64,000 bases of DNA from positions 14,461 through 78,460 of the forward strand of contig JAPOVT010000055.1 in NCBI GenBank assembly GCA_026708015.1. Direction: 5' to 3'. Positions 24,573-38,872 of this stretch are shown here, in pieces. Made by a program: the position numbers and the translations under genes. This stretch comes from a bacterium. GTDB taxonomy: Bacteria > Actinomycetota > Acidimicrobiia > Acidimicrobiales > Bin134. Under the pieces are notes generated by a model. The model was not told the origin of the DNA. It worked only from the letters and a program-made list of their open reading frames with translations, and ran no database searches. The stretch's first letter is position 1, and the number at the start of each line of letters is the position of its first letter.

Positions 24573-26094
24573 TGGAGCAGCTCCATGGATCGTGAACCAC
24601 TGTGACCGGCTCAGTCCGCATGAACAGCGCCTGGGCGACGATGCCGCCGGTAAGCGGCGGCCCCTGACCGGCCAAGTCGCACAGGGTGAGGGCGACCCTT
24701 CGCACCCGCTGGAATCCTCGGGCAGTAAGACGGCCCTCGGCAATGGAGTGGCTGAACAGGTTCTTGGCATCTGGGTCCAGGGGAGCGAATTGATCCAGGG
24801 CACCATCGGGCAGCTCGCTGTTGGAGGCCACGCCGCGGTCGCGGGCGACAGCTCGGGCCTGATCCACCCTGTCGCGAACCTGCGCCGAGGATTCACCCGG
24901 CGGGGCGTCGAAGAGATCGCTCACCTCCGGCCGGCCTACATGAATCCTCAGGTCAAATCGATCCAGGAGCGGTCCGCTCAGCCGCCGGGCGTAGCGCAAA
25001 CGGGCCACTGGCGTACACCGGCACATGCCTGGCTGTCCAAGCTCTCCGCATGGACACGGGTTCATCGCCCCGACCAATAGGAACCGAGCGGGAAATGTAG
25101 CCATGGCCGCAGCCCGGTTGACCCGAATCGACCCTTCTTCAAGGGGCTGGCGCAGCGCATCCAGGGCTTGGGGCCCGAACTCCCCCATCTCGTCCAGAAA
25201 CAGCACGCCCCCATGGGCGCAGCTGATCGCCCCAGGACGCAGAGTATGGCTCCCCCCGCCGACCAAGGCGATCATCGACGCCGAATGGTGGGGGGCCTGC
25301 CAAGGAGCTCGGCGAATCAAGCCCGAGGACGGCAAGTCCAAGCCAGCGGCGGAGTGCACCATTGTGGCCTCGATGGCGGTGTTCTCATCCAACGGGGGAA
25401 GCAGGCCGGGGAGCCGGCGGGCCAGCATGGTCTTGCCCGCTCCTGGAGGACCGATCAACAGCAAGTGGTGCCCACCGGCGGCAGCCACTTCCAATCCCAG
25501 ACGGGCCATGTGCTGTCCTCTCACATCAGCCAAATCCGCGCCGTCCTCCCGCAAGTCAGCCGACCCCAGCAGGGGCGGTTCCGGCCACGAGTCCTTGCCT
25601 CGGAGAGCGGCGACAAGCTCTGTCAGCGTGGTGGGCGCCCTTACCACAGGACCGTTGGCCAGCGCAGCCTCCGCGGCGCTCTCCGGAGCTACGACAATGG
25701 CGGCAGTCTCCAGAGAGCGCACCTGGGGCAGAACGCCGGGAACCGACCGGAGCCGTCCGTCGAGCCCCAGTTCGGCCAGAAAGGCCATATTCTCCACGGC
25801 ATCAGCAGGCAGTTGCTCATCGGCAACCAGAACTCCTATAGCGATGGCCAGGTCGAGACCAGAGCCTTCCTTGCGGATGCCCGAGGGAGCCAGGTTGACG
25901 GTGATGCGGCCCGGGGGCCAATCGACGCCGCTGGACAACAGCGCGGCGCGAACCCGGTCACGGGCCTCCCGGCAAGCGGCATCGGGCAAGCCCACCACCG
26001 TGAAGGTGGGCAAGCCCGACGACACGTGGACCTCCACGGAAACCGGATATCCGGTAATGCCGGCGAGAACGGAGGCGGGAATGGTTGCAAGCAC
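24559..26094 (-). CDS. comM: ComM / YifB family Mg-chelatase-like AAA+ protein
   Basis: ComM is a hexameric AAA+ helicase that aids branch migration when transforming DNA is integrated. The 511-residue protein has an N-terminal Lon-like domain (FTVVGLPDAACREARDRV), Walker A GPPGAGKTMLARRLPG (about residue 217), Walker B LFLDEMGEF and a Cys-rich insert (NPCPCGELGQPGMCRC) typical of the family. A C-terminal chelatase domain (RGFQRVRRVALTLCDL) closes it. The start is GTG. It overlaps dprA, a common pairing. Confidence 0.93.
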   Translation of the reverse strand: MLATIPASVLAGITGYPVSVEVHVSSGLPTFTVVGLPDAACREARDRVRAALLSSGVDWPPGRITVNLAPSGIRKEGSGLDLAIAIGVLVADEQLPADAVENMAFLAELGLDGRLRSVPGVLPQVRSLETAAIVVAPESAAEAALANGPVVRAPTTLTELVAALRGKDSWPEPPLLGSADLREDGADLADVRGQHMARLGLEVAAAGGHHLLLIGPPGAGKTMLARRLPGLLPPLDENTAIEATMVHSAAGLDLPSSGLIRRAPWQAPHHSASMIALVGGGSHTLRPGAISCAHGGVLFLDEMGEFGPQALDALRQPLEEGSIRVNRAAAMATFPARFLLVGAMNPCPCGELGQPGMCRCTPVARLRYARRLSGPLLDRFDLRIHVGRPEVSDLFDAPPGESSAQVRDRVDQARAVARDRGVASNSELPDGALDQFAPLDPDAKNLFSHSIAEGRLTARGFQRVRRVALTLCDLAGQGPPLTGGIVAQALFMRTEPVTVVHDPWSCSSARR

Positions 26095-26108
26095 GGCGAG
26101 TGCTTTCT

Positions 26109-26124
26109 CGAGGATGATTCCTCG
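26109..26124 (-). promoter_or_regulatory. Short hairpin in the comM leader
   Basis: CGAGGA (26109-26114) and TCCTCG (26119-26124) form a perfect 6-bp stem with a TGAT loop, 15-30 bases before the comM start. No U-run follows on the minus strand. It could affect access to the start region. The rest of the 133-bp gap shows no clear promoter. Confidence 0.2.
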
Positions 26125-26227
26125 TGCCTGAAGAGAGACCCGTTTCGCTGGTCACGAGCGTTCTCCGACCATAGCCACAGCCGGTGACAACTTCACCGTC
26201 TTCGGCAGTCCGGAGGGACAGATCCCC

Positions 26228-26605
26228 TCAGAGCACCTCGTTGATATAGCGGAGGACCGCGTCGATTTCGTCCGAGGTCAACAGGCCGCTGAAACCCGGC
26301 ATGCGGTTCTTCCCCTCTGAGACCACGGCGACAGCTCCGTTGGGATCAGGATATTCCTGCAACAGCCGACCACGGTTCAGGCGGGGACCGTCGCCGGTCC
26401 CGCTGCCATCGGCTCCGTGGCAAGACGCGCACCGGTCAACGAACACTCCCCGTCCGGCCACCAACACGGGATCGGGGGTCCCATCGGGACCAGCCTCCAC
26501 CTCAGGAGAGAAACCCGACCCGCATCCGACGCCTACCGCCGAGAACAAGGCCAAAACCACAACCCAAACGACAACGGCTTTCCTTGCAGCCACCAGTGGG
26601 AACAT
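26228..26605 (-). CDS. Membrane-anchored c-type cytochrome (single haem)
   Basis: The 125-residue protein has one N-terminal hydrophobic segment (AVVVWVVVLALFSAVGVGCG), then a mono-haem cytochrome c domain with CASCHG (CxxCH) and a distal Met in NRMPGFSG. The domain ends SDEIDAVLRYINEVL, typical of small class I cytochromes. Cys after the hydrophobic segment suggests a lipoprotein, although the lipobox is imperfect. It would act outside the membrane as an electron carrier; no partner oxidase or dehydrogenase is in the window. I chose the ATG at 26605; an upstream in-frame start adds nine residues. Confidence 0.82.
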   Translation of the reverse strand: MFPLVAARKAVVVWVVVLALFSAVGVGCGSGFSPEVEAGPDGTPDPVLVAGRGVFVDRCASCHGADGSGTGDGPRLNRGRLLQEYPDPNGAVAVVSEGKNRMPGFSGLLTSDEIDAVLRYINEVL

Positions 26606-33714: not shown

Positions 33715-36700
33715 TCAGCCTTGCTCGACCAAAACCTTCGGTTCAGAGGCTACCACCACTCTTTCGGAAAGCACTTTCGAGCTTCCTCCCGGTTTCATGG
33801 ACACTCCGTACAGGCAGTCGGCCGCCTCCATGGTGCGCTTCTGGTGGCTCACGATGAGTAGCTGGGCGTCGGCCCGGAATTCGTCGACAAGCTGGAGGAA
33901 GCGGTGCAGGTTGACGTCGTCAAGGGCCGCCTCCACCTCGTCCATGACATAGAACGGCGAAGGACGACTGCGGAACACGGCAAACAAGAAGGCCAGCGCG
34001 GTAAGCGAGCGCTCCCCGCCCGAGAGCAGGCTCAGACGCCTGATGTTCTTGCCTGATGGGCGGGCCTCGATCTCCACCCCGGTGTCCAGCAGCGCATCAG
34101 GCTGAGTGAGCCGCAACTGGCCCTCGCCGCCGGGAAAGAGCGTCTGGAACAGATCAGCGAAATTGCGGGCCACGTCGGCATAGGCCGACGAGAACACGCT
34201 GACGATCTCCTCGTCGATCTTGCGAATCACCTTGCGAAGCTCCCGGCGACTCTGGCGGATGTCGTCGATCTGGGCCTGGGTGAACTCATATCGCTCCGAG
34301 AGCGCCTCATACTCCTCCAACGCCAGCGGATTGACCGGTCCCATGATGCGTAGTTCTTGCTCCAAAGCCCTGACTCGGTCGGCGGGGGCGACGCCTGGTT
34401 CCGCAGGAGGGCATTGGGTGGCCACTGCCTCGGCGGGCTCGCAGTCCAGTTCGCGGCGACACCGATCTGTGGCTGCTTCCAGCCTGATCCCTGCTTCGGC
34501 CAACTCGATCTCCGCGCTGCGGTCTCTCTCCCTGCACTGACCCAACTGCGCTTCGGCCTGTGCCCTCTGGCTGCGCAAGCTCTCGAGCCGTTGGGCAGCG
34601 ATCCGAGCCGCCTCAGATTCCTCGGCCCGCCGCTGCCGTAGCTCTTCAAGCTGACGGCTGGCCTCCTGGAAACGCTCAACCACCAAGTCCATCATCTGGT
34701 CGACGATGGCGAGACGCTGGTCGACAGCCTCTCGACGAGAGGCGGCTTCGGCCCGGGCCTGGGTCATCTGGCTCAATCGTCGCTCGACTTCGTCTCGCTG
34801 CGCAGTCAGGATCCGGCGTCGCTCTTCTACCCCGGCCGCCCTCACCCGAAAGTCGGAGCGGAGGCTGCCAACCGCCTGGGACTTCTGGGCCAGCTCATCG
34901 CGGTCTCGGTTCAAGCTCTCGGCACGGGCTCGCTGCTCGACCTCTTTAGCCTGATGTTGGGGCAACTCCTGGTGGAGATCGCCCAGCCGACGGCGATCCT
35001 CGTCAATCCTGGCATCCAGCTCTGAGCACCGAGGGCCGAGAGCCCCAATTCCCACCTCCGCGTCGCGAAGCTCTCGCTCTACCGCATTGGCCCGAGCCTG
35101 AACCGCATCTCGGGCTTCGAGATGGCCGCGGGCCGCCTCACGGGTCCGGGCTTCTTCTTGCCCTGCCTCATCCAACCGTTTATCGGCCACAGCCAACTGC
35201 TGTTCAGCGGCGTTGACCGCCTCCTGTGCCCCGGCCGACGCCTCAATGGCCTCCTCGAGCAGTCCCCTGGTGGCCCCAGAACGGCGAACACCCACTCGCC
35301 ACCCGGTAGAGGAGAACCGGTCGCCCCGGCGGGTAACCACCACTGCGGCAGGATCGGCGATCGCCGCCTCGGCCGCCTGGTCGCTGCTTTCGACTACCCC
35401 GACTAATCCGACCAAGGCGTCCAACAACTGGTCCACCCCGGCCACCGACGAGCGCACACGGGGGCGCAACGGATCGCCGACGCCCGGAATCTCCGCCTCG
35501 GGGACTGATCCGCCCAGAGCCAAGACCGCACCGCTCACACTGTCGGCCTCCAGGGTGGCGATTGCTCTCATGGCAACTTCAGTGTCGGTGGCGATTACCG
35601 CAGCGATTGCCTCGCCAGCCGCGGCTTCAAAGGCGGCCTCCCATCCCCGGTCCACTTCCACCAACTCGACCAAGGTGCCCAGCACGCCTTCGATACCAAC
35701 CAGGCGCTGGGCTCCGGATTGATCGCGTGCTTCATCCAGAGCCAGGGAGAGGGCCTCCCGACGGGCCTCCCAAGCTTGAAGTTCTCCGACCGCCTCCCCG
35801 AGAGCGGACTTCTGCTGCTCGCGGGCCGCGCGAGCCTCCCTGACGGCCTTTTCTGCCCGATCTTGCTCCTGCTCCCGCGCCTGTCGAGCGATCTCCGCGT
35901 CCTTGGCCTCAGCCCAACATCGGTCCAACTCTTCGACCAGTTCTTGTCGGCGCTCCTCCAAGGCCTCCAGATTCTGGCCCAGGCGATCCGACTCGACCTG
36001 GTCCCGATCAATCGACGCCTCCAAGATCCTTATCTCGCCCTTGATCCGGGGAACATCCGACTCCGGATCCGGAACGCCCTGATCGCCCCATCGCTCGTCG
36101 AACGACAGGCGGAGCTGCTCCAACTCACCTTCAGCACCGGCTACGGCTGTCGCCGCGGGCTCCAGGGCTGCCGCCGAATCTTCTACCTCGAGCAGTTCTC
36201 TGCCGAGGCGATTCGATTCGGCCTCCAGCGTGGCCACCACGTCCTCGTCCATTCCGGCGTTGCGATCGCGCTGCAAGCGAAGACGACGCTCCGACAACAA
36301 GGCCTCCAGTCCCCGCAAGCGCTCGGTGATCCCCTCGAATCGCATCAGCGCATCGCTGATGTCTTGTCCGTCGGCGGCCGAGAGTTGGGCCTCGGCAGCG
36401 GCCAGATCCCGATCCAAGGCCTCCGCCTGCACTGAAAGCTGCTGCATCTCGCGGCGATCCGCGGCCTGATCCTGCGTCAGCTGGCGAACCCGTCGGCGCA
36501 GCTGATCAATCTCCTGACCAGCAAGATAGCGGCGAAGACCACTCAGTTCCGCCACCAAGTCGCCATGGCGCCGAGCGGCCTCGGCTTGTCGCTCCAGCGG
36601 TCGAAGCTGGCGCCGGATCTCCCGAACCACGTCGGACAGACGGGTGAGGTTGGCCTCGGATGCGGCCAGCCTCCGCTCTGACTTCTCCTTGCGGCGGCGA

Positions 36701-37209
36701 TACTTCAAAACGCCGGCGGCCTCTTCGATAACCGCCCGTCGGTCTTCGGGTCGGGCGCTCAGGACGCCCTCAATCTGGTGCTGGGAGACGATCACATGCT
36801 GTTGGCGGCCCACGCCAGAGTCGCTCAGCAGTTCTTGGATGTCAAGCAGGCGACAGGGCACCCCGTTGATGGCGTAAGTGCTGTCTCCGCTGCGAAACAG
36901 CGTGCGGGTAATGGTCACCTCTTCGAATTCGATGGGCAGGAGACGAGACGTGTTGTCGATGCTCAGCGACACCTCTGCTCGGCCCAAGCCCGCCCGGGAG
37001 GTGGTCCCGGCGAAGATGACGTCGTCCATCTTGGCCGAGCGCACCGTTGTCGGGGCTTGAGCCCCCAGTGCCCAAGCCACCGCGTCAACCACATTGGATT
37101 TGCCGCTGCCGTTCGGCCCCACGATCACCGTCACACCGGGCTCGAATACCAGCGTGGTGGAATCGGCGAAGGATTTGAACCCCTTGAGCGTCAACGCCTT
37201 CAAGAACAC
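33715..37209 (-). CDS. smc: Chromosome segregation protein SMC
   Basis: SMC is the long coiled-coil ATPase of the bacterial condensin. The 1164-residue protein has Walker A GPNGSGKSNVVDAVAWALG at residues 31-49. Two long coiled-coil arms flank a hinge (about residues 515-650, containing GWEAAFEAAAGEAIAAVI). The ABC signature LLSGGERSLTALAFLF and Walker B YVMDEVEAALDDVN lie near the C-terminus. It follows the mutM-position gene by 66 bp; the rnc-mutM-smc-ftsY order is conserved in actinobacteria. Its ScpA/ScpB partners are not in the window. Confidence 0.97.
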   Translation of the reverse strand: MFLKALTLKGFKSFADSTTLVFEPGVTVIVGPNGSGKSNVVDAVAWALGAQAPTTVRSAKMDDVIFAGTTSRAGLGRAEVSLSIDNTSRLLPIEFEEVTITRTLFRSGDSTYAINGVPCRLLDIQELLSDSGVGRQQHVIVSQHQIEGVLSARPEDRRAVIEEAAGVLKYRRRKEKSERRLAASEANLTRLSDVVREIRRQLRPLERQAEAARRHGDLVAELSGLRRYLAGQEIDQLRRRVRQLTQDQAADRREMQQLSVQAEALDRDLAAAEAQLSAADGQDISDALMRFEGITERLRGLEALLSERRLRLQRDRNAGMDEDVVATLEAESNRLGRELLEVEDSAAALEPAATAVAGAEGELEQLRLSFDERWGDQGVPDPESDVPRIKGEIRILEASIDRDQVESDRLGQNLEALEERRQELVEELDRCWAEAKDAEIARQAREQEQDRAEKAVREARAAREQQKSALGEAVGELQAWEARREALSLALDEARDQSGAQRLVGIEGVLGTLVELVEVDRGWEAAFEAAAGEAIAAVIATDTEVAMRAIATLEADSVSGAVLALGGSVPEAEIPGVGDPLRPRVRSSVAGVDQLLDALVGLVGVVESSDQAAEAAIADPAAVVVTRRGDRFSSTGWRVGVRRSGATRGLLEEAIEASAGAQEAVNAAEQQLAVADKRLDEAGQEEARTREAARGHLEARDAVQARANAVERELRDAEVGIGALGPRCSELDARIDEDRRRLGDLHQELPQHQAKEVEQRARAESLNRDRDELAQKSQAVGSLRSDFRVRAAGVEERRRILTAQRDEVERRLSQMTQARAEAASRREAVDQRLAIVDQMMDLVVERFQEASRQLEELRQRRAEESEAARIAAQRLESLRSQRAQAEAQLGQCRERDRSAEIELAEAGIRLEAATDRCRRELDCEPAEAVATQCPPAEPGVAPADRVRALEQELRIMGPVNPLALEEYEALSERYEFTQAQIDDIRQSRRELRKVIRKIDEEIVSVFSSAYADVARNFADLFQTLFPGGEGQLRLTQPDALLDTGVEIEARPSGKNIRRLSLLSGGERSLTALAFLFAVFRSRPSPFYVMDEVEAALDDVNLHRFLQLVDEFRADAQLLIVSHQKRTMEAADCLYGVSMKPGGSSKVLSERVVVASEPKVLVEQG

Positions 37210-37275: not shown

Positions 37276-38121
37276 TCAGATCTGGCACTGCTCGCAATAG
37301 TACGTCCACCGACGACGGAAGCGATATTTCTGGATGGGGCGGTGGCAGCGGGGACAGGGCCGGCCCTTCTGGCCCGCCTGCTTGAACACGTTGAGGTATT
37401 CCTCGTAGCCGCCCGGCTGGCCGTGAACATCTAAGTAGTGGCCATCCTCCAACGACGCCCCCCGGTGCTTGGCCGCGTCGTGAAGCGTCTCCACCATCGC
37501 CCGGTGCAGCCGCCGCACCTCTTGGGGCCCCAACGAGTTGGGCAGGCGGTCGAATCGCAAACCGGCGGCGAACAGGATCTCATCGGAGTACATCTCGCCC
37601 AAACCGACCACAACGCGATCATCGGTCAGCACGGCCTTCAACTTGGCGTCCTGAGCCAAGAGGATCTGGCCGAACATGCGCCAGGGCACCGGCTGATCGA
37701 GGGGATCGATGCCCAGCCCGTCCAACTCGGGGACTTCCTCGACCAGCTTTTCGGCGTTGGCCAGGAAGAGCTCAGCGTCTCCCGGCTCATCCACCAGCCG
37801 GAGCTGCCCGCTCTTCGTGAAGGTGATCGACAGGGCGGTGTTGGAGTCGACCTCGTCCCGGTTGGCGTGGCGTCGCAGCTGGCCGCCGGTGCCCAAGTGA
37901 GCCACCACCACATCTTCGCTGTCCAGGCTCATGATCAAGAACAGCCCCCGACGGCGCACACTGGTGATCTTCAGCTTCTCCAACCGGTTGACGAATTTCT
38001 TCGGTCCTCCCGATCGCTTGGCATACCCCGATTCCATGACCTCCACCGACTTGATGCGAAGACCGGACAGCTCCCTGTCCAGGTCGCGGCGGATGGTCTC
38101 GATTTCCGGCAATGCGATCAT
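37276..38121 (-). CDS. mutM: Fpg/MutM-family protein lacking catalytic residues (probable pseudoenzyme)
   Basis: The protein (281 residues) sits at the mutM locus between rnc and smc and has the whole Fpg fold, including the C-terminal zinc finger (CPRCHRPIQKYRF, then YYCEQCQ). Canonical Fpg begins MPELPEVET; here it begins MIALPEIET, so the nucleophile Pro2 and Glu3 are Ile and Ala. The catalytic Lys57 position is Leu60 (RRRGLFLIM). The HLGM Met is Thr78, the DPRxFG loop reads DEPGDAEL, and the GxGN Asn is Glu176. The ATG has a GGAG site. It probably binds DNA but cannot excise 8-oxoguanine by the known route. A TTG start at codon 4 would give MPEIET, but it shortens the strand by three residues. 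Confidence 0.85.
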   Translation of the reverse strand: MIALPEIETIRRDLDRELSGLRIKSVEVMESGYAKRSGGPKKFVNRLEKLKITSVRRRGLFLIMSLDSEDVVVAHLGTGGQLRRHANRDEVDSNTALSITFTKSGQLRLVDEPGDAELFLANAEKLVEEVPELDGLGIDPLDQPVPWRMFGQILLAQDAKLKAVLTDDRVVVGLGEMYSDEILFAAGLRFDRLPNSLGPQEVRRLHRAMVETLHDAAKHRGASLEDGHYLDVHGQPGGYEEYLNVFKQAGQKGRPCPRCHRPIQKYRFRRRWTYYCEQCQI

Positions 38122-38149
38122 CGGGTCACTCCTACTCGTACTGATGAGA

Positions 38150-38872
38150 TCACGAGGCTGCTCCGGCCCCGGCGGCGACCGCCCCAGAGTCCAGGGTCTG
38201 CCAGGTTGAGGCCGCTGCGGCCTGCTCGGCCTGCTTCTTGGACCGGCCCTCGCCTCTTCCCCGCTCCACGCCGTTCATGTACACAACGGCGAGGAATTGC
38301 TTGGCGTGGTCGGGACCCTTCTCCGACAGGCGATACTCCAGGGCATCTAAGCCGCTGCGGGCGCAGTACTCCTGCAATCTGGTCTTGAAGTCTCGGATAC
38401 CGGGGCCCTCGGCCGCCGCAGCGATGCGATCGGCCAGCCATCCCCGGACCAGATCGGTCAGAACCTCCCAGGGAGCATCCAGGTAGACCGCGCCGATCAC
38501 CGCCTCCATGGCATCAGAGAGAATCGACTGCTTCTCCCGCCCTCCAGACGCCTCTTCACCCCGCCCGAGGCGGAGAGCCTTGCCCAGCTGAAGCTCAATG
38601 GCCAGATCGGCCAGTGTCTCGGCTCGGACCACCTCAGCTCGCAGGGGAGCCAATTGGCCCTCGGCCATCTGGGGGTAGGCGGCGTATACGTGATCGGTCA
38701 CCACCAGGGCCAACACTGCATCGCCCAAGAACTCCAGTCGCTCGTTGGAGGAAGCCCCGGCGTGGTCGGCACACCAAGATCGATGGGTCACCGCCTCCAC
38801 CAGCAAGCTGGGCTGGGTGAAGCTGTAGCCGAGGCGTTCGGCTAGAGCTGCGAGGTCGGGATCGGAAGTCAG
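38150..38872 (-). CDS. rnc: Ribonuclease III, probable CTG start
   Basis: RNase III cuts double-stranded RNA in rRNA precursors and mRNA leaders. The signature NERLEFLGDAVL and the second acidic motif ILSDAMEAVIGAVYLD are intact, followed by a dsRNA-binding domain (DFKTRLQEYC to SKKQAEQAAA). The first ATG/GTG/TTG in frame (38806) would cut off the conserved first helix. The frame continues upstream as LTSDPDLAALAERLGYSFTQ, matching family N-termini, with no standard start. A CTG at 38872 overlaps the acpP stop as CTGA, the same 4-bp pattern as other pairs here, so I infer a CTG start and a 240-residue protein. Confidence 0.88.
   Translation of the reverse strand: MTSDPDLAALAERLGYSFTQPSLLVEAVTHRSWCADHAGASSNERLEFLGDAVLALVVTDHVYAAYPQMAEGQLAPLRAEVVRAETLADLAIELQLGKALRLGRGEEASGGREKQSILSDAMEAVIGAVYLDAPWEVLTDLVRGWLADRIAAAAEGPGIRDFKTRLQEYCARSGLDALEYRLSEKGPDHAKQFLAVVYMNGVERGRGEGRSKKQAEQAAAASTWQTLDSGAVAAGAGAAS

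Follow-up and report, generated by a model that had tools for sequence, protein, structure and literature searches.

Fpg/Nei proteins are usually treated as base-excision enzymes. Their DNA-handling parts comprise Asn174, Lys60, the intercalation loop and the zinc finger, while Leu4/Glu8/Arg57 and Lys160/Asp178 stabilise the helix and the H2TH motif (PMC3188539). AlkD2, which is paralogous to AlkD, a glycosylase built of HEAT-like repeats, shows no excision activity and only weak DNA binding (PMC4433238). In mycobacteria, Fpg1 (Rv2924c) is active and encoded next to rnc; Fpg2 (Rv0944) is encoded at a distance, and that of M. tuberculosis lacks the N-terminal part (PMC2734929). In the literature that we searched, we found no Fpg-fold pseudoenzyme or pseudoglycosylase, no MutM-SMC interaction, and no description of a clade such as the one presented here.

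The window, which is the whole stretch of 64,000 nucleotides analysed here, carries mutM between rnc and smc. The encoded protein shares the full-length fold and the genomic position of MutM/Fpg (TIGR00577/PRK01103; 1r2y, 1ee8, 1k82) and keeps the equivalents of its core residues Leu4, Glu6, Glu8, Arg57, Lys160 and Asp178, but it is without Pro2, Glu3, Lys57, the Met/Arg/Phe probes and the Asn phosphate contact, and falls below the equivalog cut-offs. It is highly likely, in our judgement, that catalysis has passed to an acquired MutM, and that the vertically inherited syntenic MutM of these Acidimicrobiia is now a pseudoenzyme kept for a non-catalytic role.

The syntenic mutM gene and its protein

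The gene and its surroundings lie on the minus strand, and the opposite (plus-strand) frame over 37276-38121 is interrupted by a stop:

37276..38121, minus strand: degenerate syntenic mutM, 281 aa, ATG start, TGA stop (profile matches, closest structures, model)
38129..38133, minus strand: Shine-Dalgarno sequence AGGAG, 7 nt before the ATG, conserved in congeners
38150..38806, minus strand: rnc (RNase III), conserved upstream neighbour (tblastn synteny)
33715..37209, minus strand: smc, conserved downstream neighbour (tblastn synteny)

The N-terminus is secure. An earlier note on this DNA had held that a different start, one bringing Pro2/Glu3 into register, would overturn its reading; this objection fails, with the ATG used in 22/22 congeners (the genomes of the window's genus) and AGGAG 7 nt upstream. 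An internal TTG at codon 4, giving an 'MPE' start, was considered and rejected, since the codon is CTA, CTC or CTT in 10/22 congeners and the resulting 'MPE' is three residues out of register.

The protein matches Pfam PF01149 (Fpg N-terminal) and PF06831 (H2TH) above cut-off; zf-FPG_IleRS scores 17.3 bits, below its cut-off of 21.3. Full-length matches to PRK01103 (197.4 bits, cut-off 212) and TIGR00577 (182.4, cut-off 203.3) both fall below threshold, and the closest solved sequences are MutM proteins. The AlphaFold model, built with 59 homologues, has a pLDDT of 91.6 and a pTM of 0.87, and its best PDB match is the MutM structure 1r2y (Z 34.7, 2.1 Å over 273 residues). As predicted by this model, the Fpg/MutM fold, consisting of the N-terminal beta-sandwich, the H2TH motif and the C-terminal finger, is intact in the window protein; the two Pfam domains and the similarity to 1r2y thus agree with the earlier reading that the fold remains. 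A homologue without the zinc cysteines also gives a confident model (pLDDT 92.6), in which helices and strands follow one another as in the window protein, the two-stranded finger included.

Residues are numbered as in MutM of B. stearothermophilus (Bst), whose Lys60 is Lys57 of E. coli. The replacements listed in the earlier note (Pro2, Glu3, Lys57, the Met, DPRxFG and the Asn) are all present in the open reading frame:

38113..38118, minus strand: Ile2-Ala3 replacing the catalytic Pro2-Glu3 (I/L and A fixed in 22/22 congeners)
38104..38106, minus strand: conserved Glu6 (unchanged in each of the 77 degenerate non-congeners with data)
37942..37944, minus strand: Leu60 replacing the catalytic and phosphate-binding Lys60 (E. 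coli Lys57; Leu60 in 22/22 congeners)
37888..37890, minus strand: Thr78 replacing the intercalating Met77 (alignment to Bst MutM, congeners)
37774..37791, minus strand: DEPGDA at residues 111-116 replacing the void-filling DPRxFG loop (Arg112, Phe114)
37594..37596, minus strand: Glu176 replacing the phosphate-binding Asn174 of the H2TH motif (fixed in 22/22 congeners)
37285..37356, minus strand: C-terminal zinc finger (Cys256, 259, 276, 279; Arg271), kept in the window's genus, gone in about two thirds of degenerate homologues

Mapped on Bst MutM, the window protein has Pro113 at the position of Arg112, Asp115 at that of Phe114, and Phe in place of Tyr242. It keeps Glu6, Glu8, Arg57, Lys160 (=Lys162), Asp178, Lys258, Arg264 (=Arg271) and the four zinc cysteines. 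Throughout the genus, the zinc finger, Arg271 and Lys162 are retained, and His75 mostly so. Ala3, Leu60 and Glu176 are fixed in all 22 congeners, Ala3 and Leu60 despite varying codons. Methionine aminopeptidase would leave Met1 in front of an Ile2 or Leu2. Judged from these residues, the window MutM is very probably unable to cut damaged bases.

The degenerate form across Acidimicrobiia

The sample comprised 140 rnc-mutM-smc syntenic genes from Acidimicrobiales, mostly from MAGs, which were called degenerate or canonical by Pro2/Glu3/Lys60 together with the Arg/Phe loop. By this measure 100 genes are degenerate (22 of them in the window's genus), 39 canonical and 1 intermediate (G026); rnc and smc flank nearly all 140 loci in the same direction. 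All 22 genomes of the window's genus (73-100% identity) share the degenerate state. The named relatives are Acidimicrobiia MAGs, among them Candidatus Poriferisocius and the Sva0996 marine group. The carriers are marine and sponge-associated bacteria that together make up a large group, and a large part of their class. That the state is peculiar to one assembly was considered and rejected, since it recurs in 22 species of the genus and in about 20 families.

Across the degenerate clade, Lys60 is kept in 4% (3/78 non-congeners), His74 in 6%, Asn174 in 9%, Arg264 in 29%, Arg112 in 1%, and Met77 and Phe114 in 0%; the equivalents of Tyr242 and His94/96 are also lost, and Asn174 is often replaced by Asp, Glu or Pro. 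Position 60 may hold Leu, Thr, Met, Arg or Gly, which offers no common substitute nucleophile, and the residue at position 2 is often one that would keep Met1 in place. The median net charge goes from +8 in canonical to -1 in degenerate proteins and the pI from 9.35 to 6.7 (window protein, +1 and 7.7). The zinc cysteines except Cys276 are kept in about a third of degenerate homologues, so that the retention of the zinc-finger Cys and the finger Arg, as claimed from the window, holds for its genus but not for the wider clade. Likewise, the replacements at Ala3, Leu60 and Glu176 are fixed among the congeners, but those at the N-terminus are not fixed clade-wide: Glu3 is kept in 67/77 degenerate non-congeners with data, and Pro2 in 14.

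Meanwhile, the degenerate proteins retain the LPExE helix, Lys51, Arg57 and Arg108, and the basic helix with Arg203, Arg204, Arg207 and Lys218 is nearly invariant. Lys51, Thr102, Arg108, Arg207, His214 and Lys218 are among the positions at which degenerate proteins show higher conservation than canonical ones. Of the two residue sets described in PMC3188539, the one stabilising the helix and H2TH survives. The earlier note had called the protein DNA-binding, which the wider comparison does not support: with Lys60, His74, Asn174, Arg264, Arg112, Phe114, Met77, the positive charge and often the zinc finger lost clade-wide, the degenerate protein probably no longer grips DNA in the canonical way.

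The MutM tree places nearly all degenerate genes in a single clade that branches from among the canonical genes, and G251 (family f23) has a separate origin. In the SMC tree, G265 (f14) and G251 group with canonical members of their own families, and the two trees conflict over the placement of G265. Elsewhere the SMC tree has poor resolution and a bad root, and it was therefore left out of the origin count. The sequences suggest at least two independent replacements (the main clade and genus g145 of f23) and up to about five; G265, f132 and f128 are candidate further origins, which shared-site decay may draw together in the MutM tree.

Two single genes depart from the general pattern. The intermediate G026 (f6, L067) keeps Pro2, Glu3, Glu6 and Lys60, has HLDTTG, DPRGSG and GLGAIY where the probing and phosphate-contact motifs would stand, and yielded no Fpg-B (the second Fpg described below). 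Having lost the probing loop while keeping the catalytic residues, without Fpg-B, it indicates that decay may sometimes precede replacement. In the nearly closed genome G032 (f12, L054), the canonical syntenic mutM has a frameshift near the N-terminus.

A second, intact Fpg in the same genomes

The genome of the window carries an intact Fpg, termed Fpg-B, on contig C61 at 25681-26478, with the motifs MPELPEVETIRR, RKGKYL, HLGMTG, DVRRFG and GVGNIYG. The earlier note had offered a retained dead fold and a takeover of repair elsewhere as alternatives; given this second enzyme, they become two halves of one history. Orthologues of Fpg-B (at least 50% identity in most families) are present in 22/22 congeners and 72/78 other degenerate genomes, and in 0/39 canonical ones (Fisher p 5e-25, uncorrected for kinship). 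A sign test over well-supported SMC-tree branches counts about 4 concordant and 0 discordant pairs (p about 0.125), the independent events behind the association being few. All inspected Fpg-B proteins carry the canonical residues at the catalytic and probing positions. Its nearest outside relatives belong to other classes of the phylum (44-52% identity), which suggests horizontal acquisition, with a presumed direction of transfer.

The pairing is also seen elsewhere in the class. In f132, which belongs to another order, Fpg-B is present in 7/7 degenerate genomes (six by their residues, and G899 by its matching scores) and in 0/6 canonical ones. Genus g145 of f23 (G251, G231) combines the degenerate syntenic gene with a different canonical second Fpg, G265 combines it with a divergent Fpg-B that branches apart from the others, and four genomes of f128 (residues read in 3 of them) pair it with yet another second Fpg.

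Fpg-B was not found in six degenerate genomes of the order (G038, G192, G074, G146, G367 and G078), where it was either missed in incomplete assemblies or is not strictly needed. In G192 (f35), with 98% stated completeness, the sole H2TH protein found is the degenerate MutM, and this genome may have no canonical Fpg/Nei. Additionally, two Fpg-B genes (G005:C91:17697-18494 and G132:C22:36162-36968) contain one in-frame TAG each, by assembly error or recent loss.

Further Fpg/Nei-type genes occur in the window's genome. One, at C9:9315-10085 (L003) on the minus strand, encodes PEIIEVEYYRR, RFGMTG, DPRRLG and a CPxHQ finger; it has no ATG, GTG or TTG in register, and its likely start is an in-register CTG (M-PEIIEVE) preceded by a purine-rich stretch. 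Genes of the same type in congeners (L210-L213) have a Leu codon at the same start position. Apparent Fpg hits with an in-frame TGA in congeners were set aside as alignments overrunning the ordinary stop of this gene type. The fourth gene, at C35:26574-26894 (L004), contains MPELPDVVVYLE and shows an apparent frame break after about 110 residues in this assembly.

Selection on the degenerate gene

To compare constraint, dN/dS was estimated by the Nei-Gojobori method among congeners, in the same genomes for all genes. The values are 0.085 for the degenerate mutM, 0.18 for Fpg-B, 0.12 for SMC and 0.08 for RNase III, and dN of the degenerate gene is below that of Fpg-B in 107/119 genome pairs. 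Thus the dead copy is under tighter amino-acid constraint than the working Fpg-B or SMC, and purifying selection on the reading frame, for which the earlier note proposed a test, is evident in the window's genus. Moreover, 151/281 positions are invariant across 22 species, and the frame is open in nearly all homologues. A syntenic-type gene, called at a best E of 1e-38 or lower, beyond the reach of Fpg-B itself, is kept in 175/181 Fpg-B genomes; the remaining six are fragmented or incomplete assemblies. With the catalytic residues replaced, the fold kept, the rnc-mutM-smc order conserved and selection purifying, the proposal of a pseudoglycosylase retained at a syntenic site is supported.

Proposed history and alternatives

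We propose that an ancestor acquired Fpg-B, a canonical MutM akin to those found in other classes of actinobacteria, as a second copy, which would have made the resident MutM redundant for 8-oxoG excision and so freed its catalytic residues. The resident protein has lost Pro2, Glu3, Lys57/60, the probing loop, the phosphate clamp and its positive charge, as seen in the sequences, and in many lineages the zinc finger as well. The cutting parts were apparently lost because the acquired copy took over. Decay did not go beyond this, with the fold, the LPExE helix, the basic helix and strong constraint persisting. Since the old protein is kept under tighter selection than the working copy, it very likely does something else. 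The retained surface would most likely serve as a non-catalytic scaffold or contact with a partner protein, and less likely as a new contact with nucleic acid. By position, RNase III or SMC may be that partner, and by co-occurrence Fpg-B may be; the last is the weaker candidate because genomes without Fpg-B keep the degenerate protein. The adjacency that is seen neither favours nor rules out the role with SMC raised in the earlier note.

The competing explanations differ in what the protein still does. It might bind DNA, a DNA structure or RNA without cutting, acting as a lesion sensor or as a chromosome-organisation factor beside SMC, as the nearly invariant basic helix (Arg203, Arg204, Arg207, Lys218) and the zinc finger, Arg271, Lys162 and mostly His75 kept in the window's genus would suggest; we regard this as rather unlikely, given the clade-wide loss of DNA contacts, the shift in charge from +8 to -1 and the absence of zinc Cys in two thirds of homologues. 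The smc gene adjoins it in nearly all loci, but the rnc-mutM-smc order is also found in genomes with canonical MutM, so the degenerate form is not distinguished by this adjacency. The near-perfect co-occurrence with Fpg-B would fit a non-catalytic subunit or regulator of that enzyme in a hetero-oligomer. Yet the degenerate protein is kept without detectable Fpg-B (G192, G074, G146, G038 and f58), in f23-g145 and f128 its companion is a different second Fpg each time, and canonical MutM works as a monomer, all of which make such a complex improbable.

It is very improbable that the protein is still a glycosylase or lyase, acting on a different substrate through a re-invented active site: although the fold, Glu3 (67/77) and Pro2 (14 non-congeners) are kept, there is no common replacement nucleophile, position 60 being varied and Met1 often expected to stay in front of position 2, and the flipped-base clamp and void-filling loop are absent. 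Finally, the loss of many once-essential residues within a conserved gene string could point to a decaying pseudogene or an ORF that merely couples translation of rnc and smc. This we find hardly credible beside the 151/281 invariant positions, the open frames, and retention in 175/181 Fpg-B genomes, and pseudogene decay itself is rejected by the dN/dS of 0.085.

Returning to the retained pseudoenzyme, its non-catalytic role may predate the replacement, as a second job of MutM. We tentatively entertain, while leaning against it, the broader idea that MutM holds an old second, non-catalytic job tied to its rnc-smc position, for which alone several Acidimicrobiia lineages kept the protein once 8-oxoG excision had passed to an acquired MutM; if so, the canonical MutM of other bacteria would be a two-function protein. 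That a dead copy is constrained more than a live one suggests that the MutM fold has a function yet to be discovered. Canonical, intermediate (G026), degenerate and zinc-less proteins provide a natural separation-of-function series. For genome annotation, 8-oxoG repair is assigned to the syntenic mutM, and here the probable real enzyme sits elsewhere.

Comparison with known systems

Zinc-less members of the PFNei and MeNeil1 clades remain active glycosylases with their catalytic residues, unlike the degenerate MutM. These Fpg/Nei proteins have lost the zinc Cys and kept the two-stranded finger, like the modelled zinc-less homologue (PMC3188539). The closest described precedent is AlkD2, a glycosylase-fold paralogue kept beside an active enzyme (PMC4433238). 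However, its fold is unrelated, its inactivity was measured whereas that of the degenerate MutM is deduced from sequence, and AlkD2 is substantially less conserved (PMC4433238), while the degenerate MutM is more constrained than its active paralogue. Mycobacteria are likewise actinobacterial, with several Fpg/Nei paralogues and an rnc-linked fpg1, but the arrangement is reversed: there the linked copy is active and the distant one truncated, whereas here the linked copy is full-length but, by its sequence, dead, and the distant one is intact (PMC2734929).
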